This document shows positions 3,188 through 14,761 of a stretch of 64,000 nt of DNA, piece by piece. Location: NCBI RefSeq assembly GCF_002259415.1, contig NZ_NPFY01000035.1, forward strand, positions 186,001 through 250,000, read 5' to 3'. The stretch's first letter is position 1, and each line of letters begins with the position of its first letter. Made by a program: the position numbers and the translations under genes. The stretch is from Rhodococcus sp. 14-2470-1b. GTDB taxonomy: Bacteria > Actinomycetota > Actinomycetes > Mycobacteriales > Mycobacteriaceae. The notes under the pieces are model-generated. The model had not been told where the DNA came from. It saw only the letters and a program-made list of their open reading frames with translations, and searched no databases.

Positions 3188-4378
3188 TCAGCGATCCCAC
3201 TTGCTCTCCAGCGCCGTGACGACGCGGAGGGCGAACGCGGCGACATCGGTGTCGCCCGTCCGAGTTGCTTGGTCGACGAGTACGTTCCACCGCGAGATCA
3301 GCGCGTCAGAGCGAGGCACGGACAGATGATGCGCGCGTGCAGCAGCGATACGCGTGTGGTCGTTCGGGAGGAACCAGTACGTCGTCAACCAGACCCAGAT
3401 GAGCTGGGCGTCCAGAATCTTCGACGCCAGAACACCGTCGTCGGCCAGATGCGGCCAGATGCCGACGACCTCTGCACGCCACGCGTCGATCATGGCCTGC
3501 GCCCGGTCTGCCGACAGCTCGAAGTGGCACAGGCAGCCGGGGAACGACGCCAGCGCGTACGTGATGTCCAGTGTGGCGTCGCGGAAGCCGCCCCACTCGT
3601 AGTCCAGGAAACGGACGCCTTCGTCGTTGACGAGGATGTTGTCCGGGCAGAGGTCGGACGGGCTGAACGCACGAAACGCACCGTGTGCGAACAGACGGCC
3701 GCTGCGCTCGACACGTTCACGCACGGCGTCCGGAGTGTCGGTGATGCCGAGGTCCTCCTCGAGCATCCGGGGGACGGCGACGAGAGCGTCGGGGATCTGC
3801 GCCGAGATACCGTCGGCGCTGTTCGGCACACCGGCCCGACGCAACAGTGCCGCGAAATCGTCCTCCCGGCCCACTGTTGCAGCATGCATTCGCCCGAGCG
3901 CTTGAGCCATGGCCATGAGCGAGTTGGTGACCGACGCTGCGTCGGAGTGCTTCAACAACGCCGTGATCGGACTCGCGTCGCCGAGGTCGCTGAGAATCAG
4001 CAAGCGCGCACCCAGATCGTAGGCAAGCAGGTCCGGACCCGGCCTGCTGTCGGTGGCCAGCGCAGTAGCGAATTGATACGACGCAGCCTCACGAAGAAAA
4101 GCGGAGTGTCCGCCGGACTCCGAATCGGACGCAGAATCGGACGCCGAGTCGACCTCGGAACCGGATTCCGCCGACGCTTCCCTGACCTGCTTGATCACCA
4201 GAGTGCGCGGTAGTTGAAACGGATTTTCCGCCACCCGAACTCGGAGAACGGTTGCTTGACCACTGCCTCCGAGATCGACTGGGTCCACCAGCCTGACAGG
4301 TGCGCCGGTGCGCCTCGTCAGCAAGTGCTGAGCGGCGGCCACCACCTCGGATACAGGGTCTGCCAATGTTGCGGTCAT
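3188..4378 (-). CDS. APH/choline-kinase-like phosphotransferase, possibly catalytically altered
   Basis: The 396-residue protein looks like the aminoglycoside phosphotransferase/choline kinase fold. An N-lobe contains TLVIKQVRE (the candidate ATP-binding lysine) and a C-lobe contains [10 protein letters not shown] (residues 241-250) followed by FLDYEWGG (257-264), matching the catalytic loop and the metal-binding D(F/Y) motif. The catalytic-loop Asp (242) and Asn (247) are present, but the position two before the Asp, usually His in HxDxxxxN, is Pro240. Residues about 69-90 are an insert rich in Ser, Asp, Glu and Ala in the N-lobe, probably a disordered loop. ATG 4378 gives the conserved start MTATLADP. 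The substrate cannot be told from sequence; nothing nearby suggests antibiotic resistance. Confidence 0.75.
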
Positions 4379-4458
4379 CGGGTACCAAGATACCCGGTAC
4401 TTCCGACAGACTGTGGCGCCTGACGGCACCTACTGGAGGAACCTACGTACCGATTTCG

Positions 4459-5367
4459 TCACGACGCAGGGAAATCGACCGGAGCCACGTCCACGGACAC
4501 CGAGATGCTGCTTTCCTCTGCCTCGGTGTAGATGACGCCGCGCAGAGGCGGGACGTCGGCGTAGTCACGGCCCCATGCCACCGTCGTGTATCGCTCGTCG
4601 ACGAGTTGGTCGTTGGTCGGATCGAAAGCCAGCCACCCACTCGCGCCAGTCCACACCGCGGCCCAGGCATGGGTCGCGTCCACCCCGATCATTCGTTCCT
4701 TGCCCGGTGGGGGTTCGGTGGCGAGATAACCGGACACGTACCGAGCAGCAAGACCTTTCGCACGCAGACACGCGATCGCCAGGCGAGCGAAGTCCTGGCA
4801 CACTCCCGATCGTGCCTCGAGCACGTCGGCAACTTTCGTCGATACGGTCGTCGACCCGGACTGGTAGGTGAAATCGGTGAAGATGCGGTGCGTCAGGTCG
4901 ACGATCGCCTCCCTGAGCGGTCGACCTGCCGGAAAGCTCGCGTCCGCGTACGCCACGACCCCGTCGGTCACCTCCGGGGTGTCGAGGTCGAGAACGAACT
5001 CCACTGCCGAGGCACGGGCACCGGAGGCGGTGTACTCCCCCGGAGCCAGTGGTCTCGCTGTCTCCCACGCCTCCGCCGCACCCAGCCGAAGGTCTCTCGG
5101 AGACGGCTCGTCGACCTCCACGAGTGAATCGGCCGTGACGATCAACTTGTCGTGGTCGCTCGTCACATGGAAGTAGACGTCCTCGTTGCCGAACACGTCG
5201 ACACCGTAGGACTGATCCGTCGGCGCCGGCTGCACCTCCACCGACTTCTCGACGCAACGCTGGCCGTCGAACTCTCGCGGAGCGAGAAATCCCCGCCCGT
5301 AGGAGGACGTCACGCGATCCGAGTACGTGTAGGTGGTGATGTGGCGGATTCGATACTGCCTGCTCAT
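4459..5367 (-). CDS. Transglutaminase-like cysteine protease-fold protein
   Basis: A 302-residue protein with an N-terminal beta-rich domain (bacterial transglutaminase-like N-terminal region, about 1-90) and a transglutaminase/protease-like core. The catalytic triad is visible: Cys190 in GVCQDFAR, His233 in DATHAWAAV and Asp249 in LAFDPTND. No signal peptide or membrane segment is seen, so it is probably cytoplasmic. It is the last gene of a three-gene unit; its ATG overlaps the stop of the ATP-grasp/alpha-E gene by four bases (ATGA), implying coupled translation. M. tuberculosis Rv2569c is the likely counterpart. Proteins of this neighbourhood are predicted to hydrolyse or transfer amide bonds made by the partner ligases; no substrate is known. 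Confidence 0.9.
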   Translation of the reverse strand: MSRQYRIRHITTYTYSDRVTSSYGRGFLAPREFDGQRCVEKSVEVQPAPTDQSYGVDVFGNEDVYFHVTSDHDKLIVTADSLVEVDEPSPRDLRLGAAEAWETARPLAPGEYTASGARASAVEFVLDLDTPEVTDGVVAYADASFPAGRPLREAIVDLTHRIFTDFTYQSGSTTVSTKVADVLEARSGVCQDFARLAIACLRAKGLAARYVSGYLATEPPPGKERMIGVDATHAWAAVWTGASGWLAFDPTNDQLVDERYTTVAWGRDYADVPPLRGVIYTEAEESSISVSVDVAPVDFPAS

Positions 5368-8099
5368 CGGAAGTCACCGCTTCCCGTCGTCTGACGCTGC
5401 GTGCGGTTGCCGCGGACGGTCCCCCACAACGGCTGCGTGCCACCGGGAAGCACCATGTGCGTCGCCAGCACCACCCGAGAGAGCTCCTCGAGCTGGTCGT
5501 GGATGCCGTCGACCAGTTCGACGAGGTCCACGCGCCTGCCCGAAGCGTCGACGCTTTCGAGGTCGCCCGGGTCGACGCGACGCAGCCGCACTGCAATCTG
5601 TTCGACGAGTTGTTCCGCGCGTGACGTGCCCGACGCGTCGGGCAGCGCCCCGAGATCGTCCTTGACCCGATCCAATTGGTAGACCAGCGAACGTGGGTTG
5701 TGCTCGTCGAACAACAGCAATTGAGCGACTGCAGCGGGGCGCGCACGTCCCCGATTGCGACGACGATAGATCACCGACGATTCGGCTGCGCTGAGCACGG
5801 AATCGATCACCGCCTGCTCCGTCGACGGTGTCAGTGCGTGGCTCAGCGTCGCTGACAGTAGCGCAGTCAATTGCAGCCCTCGCTCGATCCGTCGGCCGCA
5901 GTCCATCAGGTACCAGCCCGCGTCACGGACCATCGACTCCGACGCCAGACCGGACAGCGACAGCAGACCACGCAGCACCGACGACTGCGACGCCGCCAGT
6001 TGCGCACCGTCGGAACCGTCGGCGTCCGACAGATCGTCGAGCGCCGTCTCGATCCGGCTCAGAACAGCCCACGTGTCGTTGGACAGCTGATCCCTGACGC
6101 CTCTCGCGGCTTGCTGGAGACGATCCACCGACTGCGCGACCGAGCCGAGTCGGTCCACGGCGAGCATCAGAGACCGAAGCTCGGTGACCGCGTCGGCGCA
6201 CACGTCCTCGTCGAAGAACCCAGGGCCGGTACGAGACACCTTGGTCACGGCCTGCAGCAGGATCGGCAGGCTGTCACTGCCGTCGAGCCACGGCATCGAG
6301 CGGTAATCCTGGTGTCGTTCGCGCGCCGCGATCAAGAGGCGTGTCATGTCCTCGGCGCGTTCGCTGTAGCGACCGAACCAGAAGAGATCACCGAGCACAC
6401 GAGGCGAACTGACCACGTCGACGTTCTCCGTCGCCGCGTATTGCGGAAGCTCCTCCACCGAGGCGGGCGGCGTGTGGGCAGCCGAATCTGCCGTCGTCAC
6501 CCGCTCGGCAGAACGCACCCACACGTCCTTCGACGCCACCGTGATCAGGGGGTCGGCCACCGGCGACGTGACGAGGACCTGACCCAGGCCGCCCGTCATC
6601 GGCGTGTACCCGGTGCGCTGGGCGACGCTGAACAGCCTCATCCCCACTTCGGCGGCCCCGATCGTGCCGCCGAAACCCGACCCTGCGGGCGCGATGGAGA
6701 ACTCCGGGACTTCCTGCCCGGCCCACGCCCACGGCTGTGCGCGCAGGCGGTCGACGAATTCGGCCGCAGCGACATCGGTCAGGTCGTGGCCGACGACGGT
6801 TTCGCGAGTAGTCACCGACCGGAAGATCATCGAGCGAACGCCCGCCGTCAGGCGCGAGACTCCGTGATGCTCGCCTCCCCAGATCGACGGCGTCGACTCG
6901 AGCAGCAGGTCCTCGTCGAGCAACGCACGACTCAGCGCGGGCAGTAGGGAAGGAAGTGCCGGATTCTCGAGCACGCCACTGCCGAGAGTGTTGACTACCG
7001 TGACCGCACCGCGACGCAGAACCTCCACCAGACCCACGACACCCAACCGTGAATCGGGGCGCAGATCCAACGGGTCGGTGAATTCGGCGTCGACGCGCCG
7101 CAATACGACGTCCACCCGACGAAGTTTGCCGAGCGAGCGCATCCACAAGCATCCGTCGCGCACCACCAAATCCGCGTTCTCCACCAACGGGAATCCGAGT
7201 ACAGTCGCGAGATATGCCTGGTCGAAGGCAGTCTCCGAGTGCGATCCAGGACTGAGAACCACGACGACGGGGTCCTCGGCCGCCGCCGGAGCCGCGTCGA
7301 TGAGCGCAGACCGGACAGCGCGAGCGAACGTCGACAACGGGCGCGGATTCGTGTCCTGGAACAGCTCGGGCGTCGCTCGCGACATCACACGTCGATCCGC
7401 GAGCGCATACCCGATTCCCGAAGGCGCCTGGGTCCGATCGGCGATCACTCGGAACCGGCCGTCGGACGCCCTACCTACGTCGGCTGCGTGGAAGAAAAGC
7501 TGCCGTGGACCGGGAACGGTGATGCCGTGCGCCTCGCGGACGTACCCCGGGTCGCCGAACACCAATTGTGGAGGAATCACCCCGCCGGTGACTGTGCGCA
7601 TGTCGCCGTAGAGATCGGTGAGAACCGCATCGAGCAGACGTGCACGCTGAATCAGACCGGCTTCGAGAACGTCCCAGTCCCCTGCGGCCAGCACAAGGGG
7701 AATCCCGTCGAGGCCCCACCTGACCGGAGTCGTGAGGGCCTCGGAACCGCCGACCGAAACTGGGTTGTACGTGATCCCGTGTTCGTCGACGAGACTGCGA
7801 ACTCGATTCTGCAGAGCGCGTTCGCCTCCGCGACCGGCCCGGTCGAGACCGGCGATCAGTTCCGACCACTGCCGCCGAAGACCCGCAACGTGCGTATGTT
7901 CTTCGCCGCCGGCGTCGCTCAGCAGTTCGTCGTACCGTCCCTCCGTTCCCGGAAGCTCACGTCGACGGGTCCGATAGGCCTCGATCGCTTCCATCGAACC
8001 GAACTCGTCCGCCGAACCGGGCTGAACTGGCGTTGTCGACGAACCGGACGACGAGCCGACCGGGGCCGCGCTGCTCGGTGTCGCATCCACGGGCACCAT
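5364..8099 (-). CDS. Circularly permuted ATP-grasp / alpha-E domain fusion protein
   Basis: A 911-residue fusion. After a Ser/Pro-rich tail (about 1-35), residues from roughly 100 to 560 match the circularly permuted ATP-grasp ligase family (DUF404/CP_ATPgrasp); typical stretches are HSETAFDQAYLATVLGFPLV and NTLGSGVLENPAL. From about 580 to 890 comes the helical alpha-E domain (DUF403), opening with LFWFGRYSERAEDMTRLL. In many bacteria these are two separate genes; here, as in M. tuberculosis Rv2567, they are one chain. ATP-grasp enzymes join a carboxylate to an amine with ATP; alpha-E is a partner of unknown biochemical role. The start ATG 8099 has a modest upstream AAGGA; Met36 is an alternative. 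The gene starts 48 bases downstream of the large transglutaminase and overlaps the small one by four bases. Confidence 0.92.
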   Translation of the reverse strand: MVPVDATPSSAAPVGSSSGSSTTPVQPGSADEFGSMEAIEAYRTRRRELPGTEGRYDELLSDAGGEEHTHVAGLRRQWSELIAGLDRAGRGGERALQNRVRSLVDEHGITYNPVSVGGSEALTTPVRWGLDGIPLVLAAGDWDVLEAGLIQRARLLDAVLTDLYGDMRTVTGGVIPPQLVFGDPGYVREAHGITVPGPRQLFFHAADVGRASDGRFRVIADRTQAPSGIGYALADRRVMSRATPELFQDTNPRPLSTFARAVRSALIDAAPAAAEDPVVVVLSPGSHSETAFDQAYLATVLGFPLVENADLVVRDGCLWMRSLGKLRRVDVVLRRVDAEFTDPLDLRPDSRLGVVGLVEVLRRGAVTVVNTLGSGVLENPALPSLLPALSRALLDEDLLLESTPSIWGGEHHGVSRLTAGVRSMIFRSVTTRETVVGHDLTDVAAAEFVDRLRAQPWAWAGQEVPEFSIAPAGSGFGGTIGAAEVGMRLFSVAQRTGYTPMTGGLGQVLVTSPVADPLITVASKDVWVRSAERVTTADSAAHTPPASVEELPQYAATENVDVVSSPRVLGDLFWFGRYSERAEDMTRLLIAARERHQDYRSMPWLDGSDSLPILLQAVTKVSRTGPGFFDEDVCADAVTELRSLMLAVDRLGSVAQSVDRLQQAARGVRDQLSNDTWAVLSRIETALDDLSDADGSDGAQLAASQSSVLRGLLSLSGLASESMVRDAGWYLMDCGRRIERGLQLTALLSATLSHALTPSTEQAVIDSVLSAAESSVIYRRRNRGRARPAAVAQLLLFDEHNPRSLVYQLDRVKDDLGALPDASGTSRAEQLVEQIAVRLRRVDPGDLESVDASGRRVDLVELVDGIHDQLEELSRVVLATHMVLPGGTQPLWGTVRGNRTQRQTTGSGDFR

Positions 8100-8147
8100 C
8101 GAGTCGTCATTCCTTCCGTCGGGCGTCGCGGGTGGCCACGCGGGCCA

Positions 8148-11100
8148 CTAGCCGGCGTAGACACCCGTACGCCGGAGATCGAGCATCCCAGGCGCCGTCA
8201 CGTCGATCGATTGGCGCGCCTGCAACTCGAGCAATCTTGCTACGTCCACCTTGCCGGAGGTGAACCCACCCTCCTCGAAACGACCGTTGCGACGCGCCTC
8301 GGCCTCGACGGAGTTCACCGGCGGCCCGTTGTACGACCGTCCACCTGGGTGGACCACGTGGTACGTGCAGCCACCGACTGCTCGTCCCGTTTGCTTTTCC
8401 ACGAGGTCGAACCGAAGTGGACTCTGTACCTCGATGGTCGGGTGCAGTGCACTCGGTGGCTGCCACGCGCGGTAGCGGACGCCGGCGACCTGAACGTCCT
8501 GCCGTTCGGTTCGCAGCATCGGCACCGGAACGCCGTTGCACGTGACCATGTATCTGCCCTCGTCCGCGCCGGCGATCTTCACCTGAAGTCGCTCGACGGA
8601 CGAGTCGACGTACCGTGCGGTGCCGGACGACGTCGACTCCTCACCGAGTGTGTTCCACGGCTCGATCGCGCCGCGCAGTTCCAATTCCGCATCACCGATC
8701 ACGGTGGTCCCCAGCCGCGGGAACCGGAATTCGGTGAAGGGGTCCAACCAGCTGGTGTCGAATTCGATATCGTGCTCTCGCAGGTCCTCCGCGACTCGGC
8801 CGATGTCGCTGATCACGAAGTGCGGCAACATGTATCGGCCGTGCAGGTTCGACCCGTGCCGAATCAGCGGTGCGTCGAGCGGCGTGTCCCAGAACCTCGA
8901 CACCATCGACCGCACGAGCAGTGACTGCACCATCGCCATCTGGTGGTGCGGCGGCATCTCGAATCCGCGCAGTTCCAGCAGACCCAACCGCCCGCGTGTG
9001 CTGTCCGGGCTGTAGAGCTTGTCGATGCAGAACTCCGCACGATGAGTGTTCCCGGTGATATCGGTCAGCAGGTGGCGAAGCGCGCGATCCACCACCCACG
9101 GCGATGCCGTTCGGTCCGACCCCGTCAACCTTCGGATTTCGCTGAATGCGACCTCCAGTTCGTACAGCGCCTCTTCGCGGCCTTCGTCGGCGCGCGGCGC
9201 CTGCGACGTCGTTCCGATGAAGCGACCCGAGAACAGATACGACAACGACGGGTGCCGCTGCCAGTGGGTCAGGAGCGACACCAGGAGGTCCGGCCGGCGC
9301 AGAATCGGCGAATCCGACGGTGTGACGCCGCCCAGAGTGATGTGGTTTCCGCCGCCGGTCCCCCGCGTCGTGCCGTCGTTGTCGAATCCTTCCGTGCTCA
9401 GCCGTGATCGGCGTGCTTCGCGGTACAGCGTCTCCATCAGCTCGTTCTGTTCCGCCCAGGACGACGACGGCTGAACGTTCACCTCGATGACGCCGGGATC
9501 GGGGGTGACGGTCAATGTCTGCACGCGTGGGTCCGACGGAGGCCCGTAGCCCTCGATGACGACGGGAGTCTCGATCGCCGACGCGGCGTCCTCCACCCGA
9601 GCCACCAGATCGACGAAGTCCTCCAACCGGTCCACGGGAGGCATGAACACATGCAGGACGCCCTCCCGCACTTCGGCGACGAGCGCCGTCACGCCGTTGC
9701 CGCCGACGACGCCCCGATTCGACTCGTTCGCCTGTGCGAGTCGCGCGTATCGCGCCTCGGCCGGGTCGACGGGCCGAGGCGGGCGCTGCGTCATCTGACG
9801 CGCGGGCAACGGATCCTTGCGGTCGGTCGGGTCCGACGGATTCTCCGGCGGACCACCGGTCCACGAGATGGCACTGAGCGGAAGCCGCAAGCCTGCAGGC
9901 GAGTCGCCCTCCAGAAGCACGATGCGACCACGGCGGAGAGTCCAATCGGCGCTGCGCCACCCCGTTCCGTCGGGCGTCCTGCCGATGGGCAGAACGAACG
10001 CCGCTGGTTCGTCGGTACTGGACTCGAGCTTCGCCAGCAACGCCGCACGGGCGTCCGGGGTGTCGGTGCCGGGTTCGATGTCGGCGTCGACGGGTGGATC
10101 ACCGTACGGCTGCCGGACGTAGTCGAGCAGCCGCACCAACGGATCCTCGAACGCCGGTCGTGCCTGCTCGGCCGGTAACCCCAGGCCTTCCACCAGTTTT
10201 TCCACCAGAGCCCGCGACGCAGAGTTGTCGACATCGGCGGGCCGCTCGTCGGCGGGAAGCCACGGATCGGCGATGAGATCGGAATCGCTCCACAGCGATT
10301 CACCATCGGTCCGCCAATACAGACCGACCTGCCACCTCGGCAGAGGCTCACCGGGGTACCACTTGCCCTGGCTGCGTTGGACCAACCCGTCGGGTGCGTA
10401 GATGCTGCGCAGACGCTCGGCGAGTGCGCTGGCCAATATGCGTTTGTGCGGGCCGTCGGCGGTGGTGTTCCATTCGGGCGCATCCTGATTCTCGATGGCG
10501 ACGAACGTCGGCTCACCTCCCACCGTCAATCGAATGTCCTGCGCACTCATTCGCGCATCGAGCGTCGATGCGGTCCGCCGGATGGCGTCCCACTGTTCTC
10601 GGGTGTACGGCAACGTCGTGCGTGGGTCCTCGTGTACCCGAACCACGGTGTTGGAGAAGTCCAGCTCTGCAGTGCACTTGCTCGTGGCGCCGGAAATGGC
10701 TGCCGCCGTGGACGGGTGGGGTGTCGCGGACAGTGGGATGTGGCCTTCGCCCGCGAACAATCCGGAGGTCGGGTCCATCCCGACCCACCCTGCACCAGGG
10801 AGGTAGACCTCTGTCCATGCGTGGAGGTCGGTGAAGTCGGCTGCAGGCCCGGACGGACCGTCGAGAGACTTCACGTCGGACGCGAGTTGCACGAGGTACC
10901 CGGAGACGAACCGCGCGGCCAATCCCATCTGGCGCAGAACGGATACCAGCAACCACGCCGAGTCTCGACACGAACCGACCGCCGTGGTCAACGTGTGGTC
11001 CGGGCTCTGCACACCCGGTTCCATCCGCACCGAGTAACCGACGTCGCCGAGGACGGCTTGATTCGCCATCACCAGAAAATCGATGGTGCGCAGTGTGTCC

Positions 11101-11546
11101 CCGCGTTCGCGTACCGCCGCCTCCAGCTTTTCCACCCAGGTGGACACGACCGGCCCTGGGCCACTTCCTTCTTCGTCCTCGTCGACGGGCCGCAGATACG
11201 GCTCCAGATCCGGCAGGTCGGCCTTGTCGTACCGAAAACCGAAATGCTCCGCCCAGTCCTCGACGAAGAAATCGAGCGGGTTGATGACGGCCATGTCGGC
11301 GACGAGCCCGACAGTGATCGACATGTGGTCGGTTCGTTCCGGAAAAACGACGCGTGCCAAAAAGTTTCCGAATACGTCCTGCTGCCAATTCACGAAATGT
11401 TCGGCAGGTTCGATCTTCAGCGAATACGCTTCGATGGGTGTCCGAGAATGCGGCGCAGGCCGCAGCCGGATCTCGTGCGGAAACACTTGGACGGTGCGGT
11501 CGAACGAGTAACTTGTTCGATGTTCCAGAGCGACCTTGATGCCCAC
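8148..11546 (-). CDS. Large transglutaminase / DUF2126 (circularly permuted GS-like ligase) protein
   Basis: A 1132-residue two-part protein. The N-terminal part is a transglutaminase with N-terminal beta domain (HRTSYSFDRTV at the start) and catalytic Cys193 in GSCRDSAW, His242 in DLHAWTEV and Asp258 in GMDPTSG. The C-terminal 600 residues are DUF2126, with the signature GGGNHITLGGVTPSDSP and the run PILRRPDLLVSLLTHWQ; published analysis of amidoligases interprets this family as a circularly permuted glutamine-synthetase-like ligase. The start is GTG 11546, with an upstream GAGGGG at good spacing and the family's usual opening GIKVALEH; an in-frame extension to 11669 is unsupported. It is first in the unit with the ATP-grasp/alpha-E and small transglutaminase genes. 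Counterpart: M. tuberculosis Rv2566. Confidence 0.93.
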   Translation of the reverse strand: MGIKVALEHRTSYSFDRTVQVFPHEIRLRPAPHSRTPIEAYSLKIEPAEHFVNWQQDVFGNFLARVVFPERTDHMSITVGLVADMAVINPLDFFVEDWAEHFGFRYDKADLPDLEPYLRPVDEDEEGSGPGPVVSTWVEKLEAAVRERGDTLRTIDFLVMANQAVLGDVGYSVRMEPGVQSPDHTLTTAVGSCRDSAWLLVSVLRQMGLAARFVSGYLVQLASDVKSLDGPSGPAADFTDLHAWTEVYLPGAGWVGMDPTSGLFAGEGHIPLSATPHPSTAAAISGATSKCTAELDFSNTVVRVHEDPRTTLPYTREQWDAIRRTASTLDARMSAQDIRLTVGGEPTFVAIENQDAPEWNTTADGPHKRILASALAERLRSIYAPDGLVQRSQGKWYPGEPLPRWQVGLYWRTDGESLWSDSDLIADPWLPADERPADVDNSASRALVEKLVEGLGLPAEQARPAFEDPLVRLLDYVRQPYGDPPVDADIEPGTDTPDARAALLAKLESSTDEPAAFVLPIGRTPDGTGWRSADWTLRRGRIVLLEGDSPAGLRLPLSAISWTGGPPENPSDPTDRKDPLPARQMTQRPPRPVDPAEARYARLAQANESNRGVVGGNGVTALVAEVREGVLHVFMPPVDRLEDFVDLVARVEDAASAIETPVVIEGYGPPSDPRVQTLTVTPDPGVIEVNVQPSSSWAEQNELMETLYREARRSRLSTEGFDNDGTTRGTGGGNHITLGGVTPSDSPILRRPDLLVSLLTHWQRHPSLSYLFSGRFIGTTSQAPRADEGREEALYELEVAFSEIRRLTGSDRTASPWVVDRALRHLLTDITGNTHRAEFCIDKLYSPDSTRGRLGLLELRGFEMPPHHQMAMVQSLLVRSMVSRFWDTPLDAPLIRHGSNLHGRYMLPHFVISDIGRVAEDLREHDIEFDTSWLDPFTEFRFPRLGTTVIGDAELELRGAIEPWNTLGEESTSSGTARYVDSSVERLQVKIAGADEGRYMVTCNGVPVPMLRTERQDVQVAGVRYRAWQPPSALHPTIEVQSPLRFDLVEKQTGRAVGGCTYHVVHPGGRSYNGPPVNSVEAEARRNGRFEEGGFTSGKVDVARLLELQARQSIDVTAPGMLDLRRTGVYAG

Positions 11547-11662: not shown

Positions 11663-11691
11663 TTGACACGCACCCCCGGGTGCGGTTCGCT
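11663..11691 (+). promoter_or_regulatory. Candidate -35 box with adjacent palindrome upstream of the RDD gene
   Basis: TTGACA at 11663-11668 is a perfect -35 hexamer. It is followed directly by a GC palindrome with 7-base arms (CGCACCC-CC-GGGTGCG, 11669-11684) in the spacer position. The expected -10 position (about 11686-11691) reads TTCGCT, which is poor. It could be a promoter with an operator in its spacer, or chance. It lies in the 206-base divergent gap between the large transglutaminase gene and the RDD gene. Confidence 0.3.
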
Positions 11692-11752
11692 CAGCGTCGA
11701 AATCCAGACATTTGTCAACGACTCAACATCACGTCAGTCGAGGGGAACATCA

Positions 11753-12406
11753 GTGAGCGAGAACCCGCCTAACGGACCGCAGTACGGTTCGGATCCGAAT
11801 CAGCCTCAGTATCCCCAGAACCCCGCCGGTGGGTACCCGCCTCCCGGAAACGCCGGCGGATACCCGCCTCCCGGTAACTACCCTCCCCCCGGCAACTACC
11901 CACCACCTCCGGGCAACTACCCGCCGCCGCCGGTCGGCGGTAACGCCGCATACGGGTCCGGTTCGCAGCTGCCCGGAGGCGGACAACCCGGAAGCCTCGG
12001 ATTACGTTTCGGCGCACGTCTCATCGACGGCATCATCGTCGCGATCCCAGTCCTGATCATCGGGCTGTTCCTGCCCTCCGGTTTCGTCGGAACGTTCGTC
12101 TACGGCGTTCTCTCGGCCGCCGCCACGTTCGGATACTTCGTCTACCTCGAATCGTCCCGCGGTCAGACGCTGGGCAAGCAGTTGCTCGGCCTACGCACCG
12201 TCGGTGCCGCAGGCGGCAACCCCACTCAGGCGGAAGCGGCGCGACGCAACGCCTTCGTACTCCTCAGCGTCATTCCGTTCCTGATCGGCAGCGTGCTGGT
12301 GTTCATCGCATGGATCGTCATCGCGGTGACCATCAACTCCAGCCCCACGAAGCAGGGCAAGCACGACGAGATCGCCGGCGGAACCCAGGTCATCACCGCC
12401 AGGTGA
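11753..12406 (+). CDS. RDD-family membrane protein with Pro/Gly/Tyr-rich N-terminus
   Basis: A 217-residue protein. Residues 1-80 are low complexity, built of PPPGNY-type units and almost without charge; from about 83 (GLRFGARLIDGIIVAIPVL) follows an RDD domain with three hydrophobic segments and the family's RGQTLGKQLLGLRTV loop. RDD proteins are small membrane proteins of unclear function, some linked to ion exchange. The GTG at 11753 has AGGGG upstream and encodes VSENPPNGP, the same opening as the next gene, which supports this start over one at 11663. A strong hairpin follows the stop. In M. tuberculosis this locus holds the proline/glycine-rich Rv2560. Confidence 0.88.
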   Translation: MSENPPNGPQYGSDPNQPQYPQNPAGGYPPPGNAGGYPPPGNYPPPGNYPPPPGNYPPPPVGGNAAYGSGSQLPGGGQPGSLGLRFGARLIDGIIVAIPVLIIGLFLPSGFVGTFVYGVLSAAATFGYFVYLESSRGQTLGKQLLGLRTVGAAGGNPTQAEAARRNAFVLLSVIPFLIGSVLVFIAWIVIAVTINSSPTKQGKHDEIAGGTQVITAR

Positions 12407-12422
12407 TGACCTGCTGAACGAT

Positions 12423-12464
12423 CAGCGAGCGGGCCCGCCTACACATCGGCGGGCCCGCTCGCTG
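12423..12464 (+). terminator. Rho-independent-type hairpin after the RDD gene
   Basis: A perfect 17-bp GC-rich stem with an 8-base loop (12440-12447) lies 17 bases after the stop and is followed by CGTTTC. The long perfect stem makes it a likely transcription terminator although the T run is short, as is usual in high-GC actinobacteria. Confidence 0.8.
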
Positions 12465-12550
12465 CGTTTCACCCTTCGATTCACCTGCAGGTTCGGTCCG
12501 CGGACGCGGATCGGTGCGGCACAATCGATCAACCACCGATGAGGAGAATT

Positions 12551-13480
12551 GTGAGCGAGAACCCACCGAACGGACCCCAGGACGGCAAGGACACGAATCC
12601 CGAGCAGTCCGGAGACCCGGGCAAAACACCACCCGGCAACTACCCGCCACCTCCGGGCAGCTATCCCCCGCCGCCCGGCAACTACCCGCCACCGTCCGGC
12701 GGCTACCCACCACCGCCCGGAAACTACCCGCCACCTCCGGGCAGCTATCCCCCGCCGCCCGGCAACTACCCACCGCCGCCCGGCAACTACCCACCGCCCC
12801 CGGGTTTCGGCGGACAGGGTTACGGCGGACACGGCGCCGGCCTGCCGCCGACGCTGAACGTCGGTGACGCACTCTCGTTCGGTTGGAACAAGTTCAAGGA
12901 CAATGCTGGCGTCTGGATCGGCATCGTCGTCATCGCCGCAGTCATTCAGGTGATCCTGAACCTCGTTTTCGGTCGCTCGGGGAGTTCGGGTGACGTGTCC
13001 GCCTTGTTCGGAATCTGGTCGATCATCGGTACCGTCGTCTCCGCGATCGTGGGGTACATCATCAATGCGGCGTTCATCCGAGGCGCACTGCACGAGGTCG
13101 ATGGCAACAAGCCCGCCATCGGGTCCTTCTTCCAGTTCGCCAACGTCGCCTCGATCATCATCGCCAGTGTTCTCGTCGCCATCATGGTTCTGGTCGGATT
13201 CGTCCTGCTTGTCATCCCGGGACTCGTCCTCACCTTCCTGTCATGGTGGACACTGCAATTCGTCATCGACCGCAACGAGGACGCCGTCACCGCCATCAAG
13301 TCCAGTTTCCGAGCGATCTCCTCGAACGCAGGACAACTGTTCCTCCTGGCCCTCGCAATCATCGGAATCAACATCCTCGGAGCCATCCCCTGCTTCCTCG
13401 GGTTGCTCGTGACCATTCCGATCTCGGCCATCGCGTCGACCTACGCGTATCGCATCGTGTCCCGCACGGCTGCGGTCTAG
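12551..13480 (+). CDS. Polytopic membrane protein with PPPPGNY heptad repeats
   Basis: A 309-residue protein. Residues about 26-88 are eight to nine tandem heptads of the form PPPPG(N/S)Y. From about 100 on it has a membrane domain opening with LNVGDALSFGWNKFKDNAGVW and about five hydrophobic segments, ending ISAIASTYAYRIVS. The membrane domain is homologous to that of the following gene, and the first residues (VSENPPNGPQ) are nearly identical to those of the preceding RDD gene. The GTG start at 12551 follows GAGGAG. The repeat region is presumably exposed and disordered; function is unknown. It sits in a run of three tail-plus-membrane-domain genes. Confidence 0.85.
   Translation: MSENPPNGPQDGKDTNPEQSGDPGKTPPGNYPPPPGSYPPPPGNYPPPSGGYPPPPGNYPPPPGSYPPPPGNYPPPPGNYPPPPGFGGQGYGGHGAGLPPTLNVGDALSFGWNKFKDNAGVWIGIVVIAAVIQVILNLVFGRSGSSGDVSALFGIWSIIGTVVSAIVGYIINAAFIRGALHEVDGNKPAIGSFFQFANVASIIIASVLVAIMVLVGFVLLVIPGLVLTFLSWWTLQFVIDRNEDAVTAIKSSFRAISSNAGQLFLLALAIIGINILGAIPCFLGLLVTIPISAIASTYAYRIVSRTAAV
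12629..12805 (+). repeat. In-frame 21-base (PPPPGNY) tandem repeat
   Basis: About eight tandem 21-base units encode PPPPG(N/S)Y heptads inside the membrane-protein gene. Within them a 50-base block at 12638-12687 recurs exactly at 12722-12771, an offset of 84 bases or four units, which indicates recent duplication by slippage or unequal recombination. Confidence 0.9.
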
Positions 13481-13492
13481 ATCCCGGCGCTG

Positions 13493-13516
13493 TACCGAGC
13501 ATCAGACTGCTCGGTA
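13493..13516 (+). terminator. Hairpin downstream of the heptad-repeat membrane gene
   Basis: A 9-bp perfect stem (TACCGAGCA / TGCTCGGTA) with a 6-base loop lies 12 bases after the stop. It is followed by ATCGAAATCG with no T run, so it is a possible terminator only. Confidence 0.5.
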
Positions 13517-13624
13517 TCGAAATCGTCGGTCACTCGCCGTATTGTTCTGTCGTTGCCTGGGTCCACCGTCCGAGAACGGGCCGGTCCAGGCGACGACAGA
13601 CAAGTAGATTCCGGCGAGAGGGAG

Positions 13625-14761
13625 ATGTTGAACGACCACGACGGCGGCGGTACGAGCAACACCGGGGGCGGCGGACCGGATCCAGAGCAGGGCGCACCGC
13701 AGGGTCAGAACCCGCAAGAGGAGTACACCCAGCAACCGTACGACGCCCGGCAGCAAGGCATCGGCGGCTACCCTCAGCAGCCCGTACATCCGACACCGCC
13801 CCCGTATCAAGGCCAGCCCACGTACCCAGGACAGCCCCAGTACCCAGGACAGCCCCAGTACCCAGGACAGCCCCAGTACCCAGGACAGCCTGAGTACTAC
13901 CAGTCGCAACCGGGTTCCGGGCCGCCACCCGCGTACGGCCAACAGCCTGGCTACGGACCGTCCGGCGGTGGGTATCCCTCGTACCCGTCGGCGCAGCCCT
14001 GGGGTGGCCCCCCGTTTCCACAGCCGTACTCGCACCAGCAGTATCCACAACAGCACTACACGCCACCGACGTCACTGAGTGTCGGTGCGGCTCTGAGCTA
14101 CGGCTGGAAGAAGTTCGGCGCCAACATCGGTGTGTGGCTCGGCGTCATGGGGCTCTTCGCGGCGGTGACCGTCTTGGGATATGTCGTGTTCTTCGCCGTC
14201 ATCATCGCCGGTATCTCGAGCTCGACCGAGTTCGAGGACACCATGTTCGCTGCGGCCGGCGACGGTGAGTTGTCGTTCGCCCTGATCGTGGTCACCTTCG
14301 TGGCCGGCCTCATCGGGTTCTATGCGGGAGCCCTGCTCATCCGGGGTGCGCTGCTGGAATTGGACGGTGCGAAGCCCGGCTTCGGCGAGTTCTGGCGTCT
14401 GCCCAACCTGGTGCAGCTGACCCTGTTCGGAGTCGTAGTCTCGTTGATCAGCGCAGTGGCCCCGTCGCTGCCCACCCTGGCATCCCTGTCGATCAGTCTG
14501 CTACTCGGTATTCTGATCTGGTTCGGTCCGCATTTCATCATCGACCGTGGCGCATCGGCGGTGATCGCGTTGACCGCCAACATCAGGTTGCTCGGTGTCA
14601 GCCCGGGCAAGCTCGTCCTGCTGTACCTGGCGGTGGCCGGAATCAACATCGTCGGAGCAGTACCCTGTGGGCTGGGACTTCTGTTCACCATTCCCGCGAG
14701 CGTGATCGCGGTGACCTACGCGTACCGCGTTCTGTCCGCGGGAGCTGTCTCGCCGGCGTAG
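13625..14761 (+). CDS. Polytopic membrane protein with YPGQPQ repeats
   Basis: A 378-residue paralogue of the preceding gene. The N-terminal roughly 150 residues are rich in Gln, Pro, Gly and Tyr, including four YPGQPQ-type units. The membrane domain begins near SLSVGAALSYGWKKFGANIGVWLG and carries about six hydrophobic segments, ending SVIAVTYAYRVLS, clearly matching the neighbour's C-terminus. ATG 13625 follows GAGAGGG closely; the overlapping TTG at 13628 is an alternative with better spacing. The gene converges on aspS with a shared hairpin between them. Function is unknown; the family probably arose by local duplication with different tails. Confidence 0.83.
   Translation: MLNDHDGGGTSNTGGGGPDPEQGAPQGQNPQEEYTQQPYDARQQGIGGYPQQPVHPTPPPYQGQPTYPGQPQYPGQPQYPGQPQYPGQPEYYQSQPGSGPPPAYGQQPGYGPSGGGYPSYPSAQPWGGPPFPQPYSHQQYPQQHYTPPTSLSVGAALSYGWKKFGANIGVWLGVMGLFAAVTVLGYVVFFAVIIAGISSSTEFEDTMFAAAGDGELSFALIVVTFVAGLIGFYAGALLIRGALLELDGAKPGFGEFWRLPNLVQLTLFGVVVSLISAVAPSLPTLASLSISLLLGILIWFGPHFIIDRGASAVIALTANIRLLGVSPGKLVLLYLAVAGINIVGAVPCGLGLLFTIPASVIAVTYAYRVLSAGAVSPA
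13823..13894 (+). repeat. Four tandem 18-base repeats (YPGQPQ codons)
   Basis: Four consecutive 18-base units encode YPGQPQ. The first three are identical and the last differs at two bases, changing the final Gln to Glu. They keep frame within the membrane-protein gene. Confidence 0.92.

Follow-up and report, generated by a model that had tools for sequence, protein, structure and literature searches.

The window analysed here is a stretch of 64,000 nucleotides from the 5.9 Mb genome of Rhodococcus sp. 14-2470-1b (contig NZ_NPFY01000035.1, positions 186,001 to 250,000). It carries a three-gene operon on the (-) strand, encoding a protein with a papain-like transglutaminase and a DUF2126 (glutamine-synthetase-type) amidoligase domain (gene 1), a CP-ATP-grasp/alpha-E fusion (gene 2) and a small transglutaminase (gene 3). 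We report that the ATP-grasp domain of the fusion has lost its catalytic motifs in every row of its clade that was compared, and that an intact counterpart is encoded at a second locus of the same genome.

The operon and its protein domains

The original prediction of three genes, of an ATGA overlap and of two intact transglutaminase triads was confirmed, and Pfam profile searches match all families it had assigned, DUF2126, CP-ATP-grasp, alpha-E and transglutaminase (Table 1). The genes are tightly spaced, with 48 bases between genes 1 and 2, the overlap of genes 2 and 3 and 29 bases before a fourth gene; in these gaps, the only places considered, there is no room for an open reading frame encoding a Pup-type small tag. 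Over the whole genome the count is one DUF2126, two alpha-E, two CP-ATP-grasp and three bacterial transglutaminase N-domains.

Table 1. Coordinates of the operon and its features within the window
Feature	Position	Strand	Remarks
TG-DUF2126 (transglutaminase-DUF2126) protein, gene 1	8148..11546	(-)	1132 aa, GTG start; Pfam
Transglutaminase triad, gene 1	10773..10970	(-)	C193 (10968-10970), H242 (10821-10823), D258 (10773-10775)
DUF2126 domain, residues 290-1125	8172..10679	(-)	predicted active ligase
Fused CP-ATP-grasp/alpha-E protein, gene 2	5364..8099	(-)	911 aa; predicted pseudo-ligase
CP-ATP-grasp domain, residues 134-508	6576..7700	(-)	Pfam
Degenerate metal motif, residues 220-222	7434..7442	(-)	A-D-R versus E-D-N in intact relatives
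Residues 427-434, without the ATP-binding Lys and glycine-rich loop	6798..6821	(-)	R-S-V-T-T-R-E-T
Alpha-E domain, residues 566-879	5463..6404	(-)	Pfam
ATGA overlap, genes 2 and 3	5364..5367	(-)	
Small transglutaminase-like protein, gene 3	4459..5367	(-)	302 aa; Pfam
Small transglutaminase triad	4621..4800	(-)	C190 (4798-4800), H233 (4669-4671), D249 (4621-4623)
Fourth co-oriented gene, weakly APH phosphotransferase-like	3188..4429	(-)	29-base gap after small transglutaminase

The GTG start of gene 1 is consistent with its relatives, whose alignments begin at residue 1. The DUF2126 profile (PF09899) scores 1153 bits (cut-off 27) and is covered from position 2 to 826 of 826, and the Cys-His-Asp triad of the transglutaminase part is kept in 112/112 relatives. 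Structure comparison of the predicted model gives a fold of the glutamine-synthetase type, in line with the glutamine-synthetase-like ligase originally proposed. Gamma-glutamylmethylamide synthetase (GmaS) is among the matches; identity to glutamine synthetase and GmaS is 7-14% in the rows listed. The family is described as circularly permuted. DUF2126 is likely the active ligase of the operon. Its nearest named loci are those of R. yunnanensis (89%) and R. ruber (87%). At two places in other genomes (G176:C189:44044-46256 and G006:C5:211172-214187) DUF2126 matches are split between frames, which may reflect frameshifts, sequencing errors or split genes.

The best solved relative of the small transglutaminase is 3isr, and its Cys-His-Asp triad is kept in 75/75 relatives. 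Rv2567 and Rv2569c of Mycobacterium tuberculosis are neighbours of Rv2566 and putative orthologues of genes 2 and 3, Rv2569c presumably being of the small transglutaminase kind. In PMC11081392, Rv2569c is reported to be a cell-wall serine protease inhibited by phenylmethylsulfonyl fluoride (PMSF) and 4-(2-aminoethyl)benzenesulfonyl fluoride (AEBSF) and not by E-64 or N-ethylmaleimide; this report contrasts with the cysteine that is invariant at the nucleophile position in all small transglutaminases compared.

Loss of catalytic motifs in the fused ATP-grasp protein

Gene 2 retains the CP-ATP-grasp fold and a clear alpha-E domain (PF04168, 218 bits), in which W574, G576, R577, R581 and R587 are invariant and E580 nearly invariant over 48 rows, so that the E-R motif of the family (E580, R581) is conserved. 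The catalytic motifs of the ATP-grasp domain are lost. In the alignment with the genome's intact copy, residues 427-434 take the place of K-P-V-E-G-S-G-G-Y-G, with R427 at the position of the ATP-binding lysine and no S-G-G-Y-G in the loop; the N-S-S-Q-G-G-G motif is lacking as well. The solved relative 3n6x, a putative glutathionylspermidine synthase from Methylobacillus flagellatus, retains E-D-N, the lysine and S-G-G-Y-G, whereas the window fusion does not.

This loss is not peculiar to the window. After removal of own-genome duplicates, of rows with <350 core letters and of one identical row (166 reduced to 154 rows), the E and N of the metal motif are both kept in 0/101 fusion rows, as against 42/42 stand-alone and 11/11 GCS2-type rows, some of the 101 being fragments that end before the last motifs. 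E-D-N was seen in none of the best 120 database matches, 118 having other letters and 2 lying outside the search pattern. Fusions differ widely in the residues found where the E (A, G, S, D, N, E) and the N (R, W, Y, H, L, S) used to be, and their loops are of unequal length. Glutathione synthetase, which is related in fold to the ATP-grasp domain, binds two magnesium ions through acidic residues, and its conserved glycine loop probably contacts the phosphates (PMC2845819). Because of this knowledge of the fold, we infer that the motifs lost from the fusion are those for metal and ATP and that it would not use ATP; the fused ATP-grasp is predicted to be a pseudoenzyme.

The claim that two ligases are encoded together is therefore not upheld: the ATP-grasp motifs are lost, and DUF2126 alone is predicted active. 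The original reading was to be refuted if both ligase domains had lost the residues that bind ATP and metal; such a loss was found in the ATP-grasp domain, and DUF2126, assessed by conservation alone, gave no sign of it.

The fusions form one clade with support of 100/100 in a tree of 62 rows (32 fusions, namely the window, 24 random and 7 extra ones; 6 GCS2 fusions; 24 others), and this clade spans actinobacteria, proteobacteria and bacteroidetes. The 911-codon frame is open and under purifying selection, the ratio of non-synonymous to synonymous substitution rates (dN/dS) being 0.11-0.15. At E <= 1e-30 a search with the fusion retrieved 3801 proteins, a number that may include some of the longer stand-alone relatives; both domains are present in 120/120 database relatives listed, and the nearest named one, from Rhodococcoides fascians, has 97% identity.

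Two simpler accounts of the motif loss were rejected. A Rhodococcus-only oddity is incompatible with a loss common to all 101 rows, those from proteobacteria and bacteroidetes included. Fusion itself is not the cause either, since the GCS2-CP-ATP-grasp fusions (L131, L133, L135, L139) retain E and N. These proteins, from the same bacterial family as the window, join a glutamine-synthetase-type ligase to CP-ATP-grasp; they differ from the window in their intact E-D-N and in carrying two ligases in one chain. In one genus (g4; L131, L143, L144) long genes of this type stand as a tandem pair, E-D-N being kept in all six; GCS2 is Pfam-confirmed for the L131 pair only. These are apparently active two-ligase chains, unlike the window operon.

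Intact counterparts and genomic setting

The second locus (G000:C2:136.9-139.4 kb) has separate genes for CP-ATP-grasp, alpha-E and a transglutaminase, in that order. Its ATP-grasp motifs are intact (E-D-N-L-R, K-P-V-E-G-S-G-G-Y-G, H-V-D-L-R and N-S-S-Q-G-G-G) and nearly letter for letter those of 3n6x. An amidoligase/peptide system of these families, with an Anbu-type operon, was reportedly described by Iyer et al. in 2009. The Anbu operon is described in passages of PMC5666114 and PMC6376114, where that work is cited for a role in peptide synthesis or tagging, and Rv2566, a published example of the gene 1 domain pair, appears in part of PMC2588565 as a likely peptide-forming transglutaminase/carboxylate-amine ligase fusion; the proposed tie to a published system is thereby borne out. 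According to passages of PMC6376114, a stand-alone ATP-grasp releases phosphate, and the Anbu tested showed no activity.

The domain families of the Anbu-type operon (CP-ATP-grasp, alpha-E, transglutaminase, Anbu) are shared with the window, and the second locus has the first three in order. The window differs in that ATP-grasp and alpha-E are fused, the ATP-grasp is degenerate, DUF2126 is added and the genome has no detected Anbu. As originally predicted, no Anbu N-terminal nucleophile (NTN) hydrolase was found in the operon, nor in the genome, where the proteasome-family matches are 20S alpha and beta only; an Anbu-like peptidase elsewhere in the genome was likewise rejected, only PrcA and PrcB being found. 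The one-chain fusion and the missing Anbu are both frequent in this gene set, and neither is a novelty. Among 80 DUF2126 loci, read on fetched stretches of <= about 21 kb, 26 have the fusion and a stand-alone copy, 29 the fusion only, 15 the stand-alone copy only and 10 neither, several of the last being on short contigs; the fusion is thus found at 55 of the 80, counting L040, which is the same DNA as L149. The three-gene order also recurs in mycobacteria (L011, L012, L013 and L015 have that of the window), other actinobacteria and proteobacteria; the R. ruber strain of L016 also carries the three genes.

In the genomes sampled, DUF2126 is always accompanied by a second CP-ATP-grasp whose E-D-N and glycine loop are intact. 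In a sample of the family, DUF2126 is present in 49/201 genomes; each of these has two or more CP-ATP-grasp matches, and the strongest reaches E 2.5e-161 or below, as stand-alone copies do. Such strong copies, defined by thresholds chosen by eye (E up to 2.5e-161 for the family, up to 1.1e-150 for the phylum), occur in 113/201 family-sample and 33/246 phylum-sample genomes. DUF2126 is found in 9/246 genomes of the phylum sample, five of them shared with the family sample, and 9/9 have at least two CP-ATP-grasp matches, one of them strong. The strong copy retains E-D-N, D-L-R and the lysine plus glycine loop wherever it was read: in the window's own genome, in the 48 other DUF2126 genomes of the family sample, in G409 and in the remaining three of the phylum sample (L152, L155 and L156), N-S-S-Q-G-G-G lying outside the fetched stretches for the 48 and G409. 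Some actinobacteria have intact and dead ATP-grasp versions in one cluster; L152, L155 and L156 combine stand-alone ATP-grasp, alpha-E, fusion, small transglutaminase and TG-DUF2126 within about 11 kb, and L157 and L158 have the same cluster minus DUF2126.

Inside the genus of the window, DUF2126 is patchy (7/15 genomes listed); five of the eight genomes without it still carry the fusion together with the small transglutaminase, and the other three gave no hit to CP-ATP-grasp.

The fourth gene of the window matches PF01636 at E 0.0023, below the cut-off, and LxmK at E 2.8e-05, far below the cut-off. It is syntenic in many relatives, not in all, and is only a weak candidate for a part in the amide-ligase system. 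Rhodococci and Williamsia share the string small transglutaminase, fourth gene, rarA. Divergent from the operon, three successive genes (11663-14761, (+)) encode proteins whose N-termini carry YPPPPGN-like repeats rich in proline and glycine; Pfam identifies the first as an RDD protein and gives no match for the other two.

A proposed half system with a candidate adaptor, and its alternatives

We favour, with a probability of roughly 0.6, the reading that the operon supplies half of a system for making amide bonds. DUF2126 would be the sole active ligase of this half, and the dead ATP-grasp would act as an adaptor. By glutamine-synthetase chemistry, DUF2126 would spend ATP on activating a carboxylate for coupling to an amine, and the resulting amide would be cut or trimmed by the transglutaminase domains. 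The pseudo-ATP-grasp/alpha-E chain, as a degenerate and fused version of the intact ATP-grasp plus alpha-E pair, would bind substrate or partner without ATP turnover; it may dock with DUF2126, with the intact pair or with the two together. More tentatively, the whole could be a widespread bacterial machine of paired subunits, in which an ATP-grasp inactivated long ago and fused to a second alpha-E serves as a pseudo-symmetric adaptor, passing the growing product from the intact ATP-grasp and its alpha-E partner to DUF2126 as a second, glutamine-synthetase-type engine and to the trimming transglutaminases, the window encoding the adaptor half and the intact half lying elsewhere in the genome.

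Several observations weigh against the adaptor reading. Fisher tests of DUF2126 against strong copies (2e-15 and 5e-9) ignore relatedness, and a faster tree gave the fusion clade weak support (0.52). The DUF2126 model is middling (predicted local distance difference test, pLDDT, 74), and its residues were assessed by conservation only. A pull-down described in part of PMC6376114 gave no specific complex among related Anbu operon products. The 15 DUF2126 loci with an intact stand-alone copy only and the 10 with neither, within the fetched stretch, suggest that DUF2126 may not always need the fusion. Conversely, the fusion occurs without DUF2126 in 16/26 DUF2126-negative genomes examined, a hand-picked subset, and therefore cannot be a DUF2126 adaptor only; on these genomes and the L157/L158-type clusters, a dead ATP-grasp serving DUF2126 alone was dropped. 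In the 16 genomes the small transglutaminase adjoins the fusion at 16/16 fetched loci, and a stand-alone CP-ATP-grasp with E-D-N, D-L-R and the lysine plus glycine loop intact is also present in 16/16, the stretches fetched again ending before N-S-S-Q-G-G-G. A DUF2126 remnant beside these fusions was looked for and rejected, the match there being limited to the transglutaminase part. Finally, the pocket is partly kept: Asp221 is present in 99/101 and Arg488 in 98/101 fusion rows, the ATP-binding lysine in 46/101 (not in the window), and two rows retain the E. Such a residual pocket might still allow unusual chemistry or nucleotide binding.

Nitrogen salvage under starvation is possible, although we give it less than an even chance. 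Here the glutamine-synthetase-type ligase would gamma-glutamylate amines or peptides, as its fold match to GmaS might suggest, and transglutaminase-type amidases would release usable nitrogen. In PMC5491218, a similar cluster is listed in the NtrC regulon of Burkholderia, the B. cenocepacia genes I35_5080-5083 (DUF404/407, DUF403, transglutaminase, large transglutaminase protein) having values of -6.0 to -9.4 in an ntrC mutant. Passages of PMC5666114 report Anbu of Pseudomonas putida to be up under nitrogen limitation, and in those of PMC3597751 the domains correlate with urea genes in marine metagenomes, DUF2126 not being among those named. Against this, the gap upstream of the operon holds no GlnR-like site (the whole window has 8 matches versus 5.2 expected, and such a box was rejected), and 0/6 neighbouring genes scanned is an amine-utilisation gene. 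Nitrogen salvage is compatible with the adaptor reading and does not exclude it.

It is unlikely that the fusion is catalytic by a changed mechanism in which Asp221, Glu378 (98/101 rows) and Arg488 make up a novel site, possibly one that takes a different nucleotide or catalyses a phosphate-free transfer. The conservation of these residues and the substitution of some class-specific residues for old ones speak for more than random drift, but the variable letters at the E and N positions and the variable loop length point to loss of the site rather than to its replacement. The original reading that both ligases are active, with ATP-grasp as well as DUF2126 making amide bonds and the two transglutaminases cleaving or transferring amides, is quite improbable given the clade-wide loss of E-x-N, glycine loop and N-S-S-Q-G-G-G, to which the window adds that of the lysine, and given the other letters that stand in place of E-D-N in 118 of the best 120 database matches. 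A decaying duplicate without function would explain the lost motifs, but this very improbable reading is already contradicted by the open frame under purifying selection, the single clade across three groups of bacteria and the constant small transglutaminase neighbour at loci without DUF2126.

The gene set is not new; its domain families are already named in Pfam, and the operon is an ordinary member of a known set. The dead ligase with an intact counterpart elsewhere may be the undescribed part: as far as our literature searches go (Iyer et al. 2009 being outside their coverage), a fused ATP-grasp predicted to be motif-inactivated clade-wide, with an intact copy alongside, appears to be new. 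Listed fusion relatives with descriptive names are called circularly permuted (type 2) ATP-grasp protein, a name that hints at an active ligase; judged by their motifs, they are probably not active ligases. The targets for assays would shift accordingly, DUF2126 and the stand-alone ATP-grasp being the candidates for activity and the fusion a candidate binding partner. For a system with published predictions, the second locus offers a concrete place for the missing partner.
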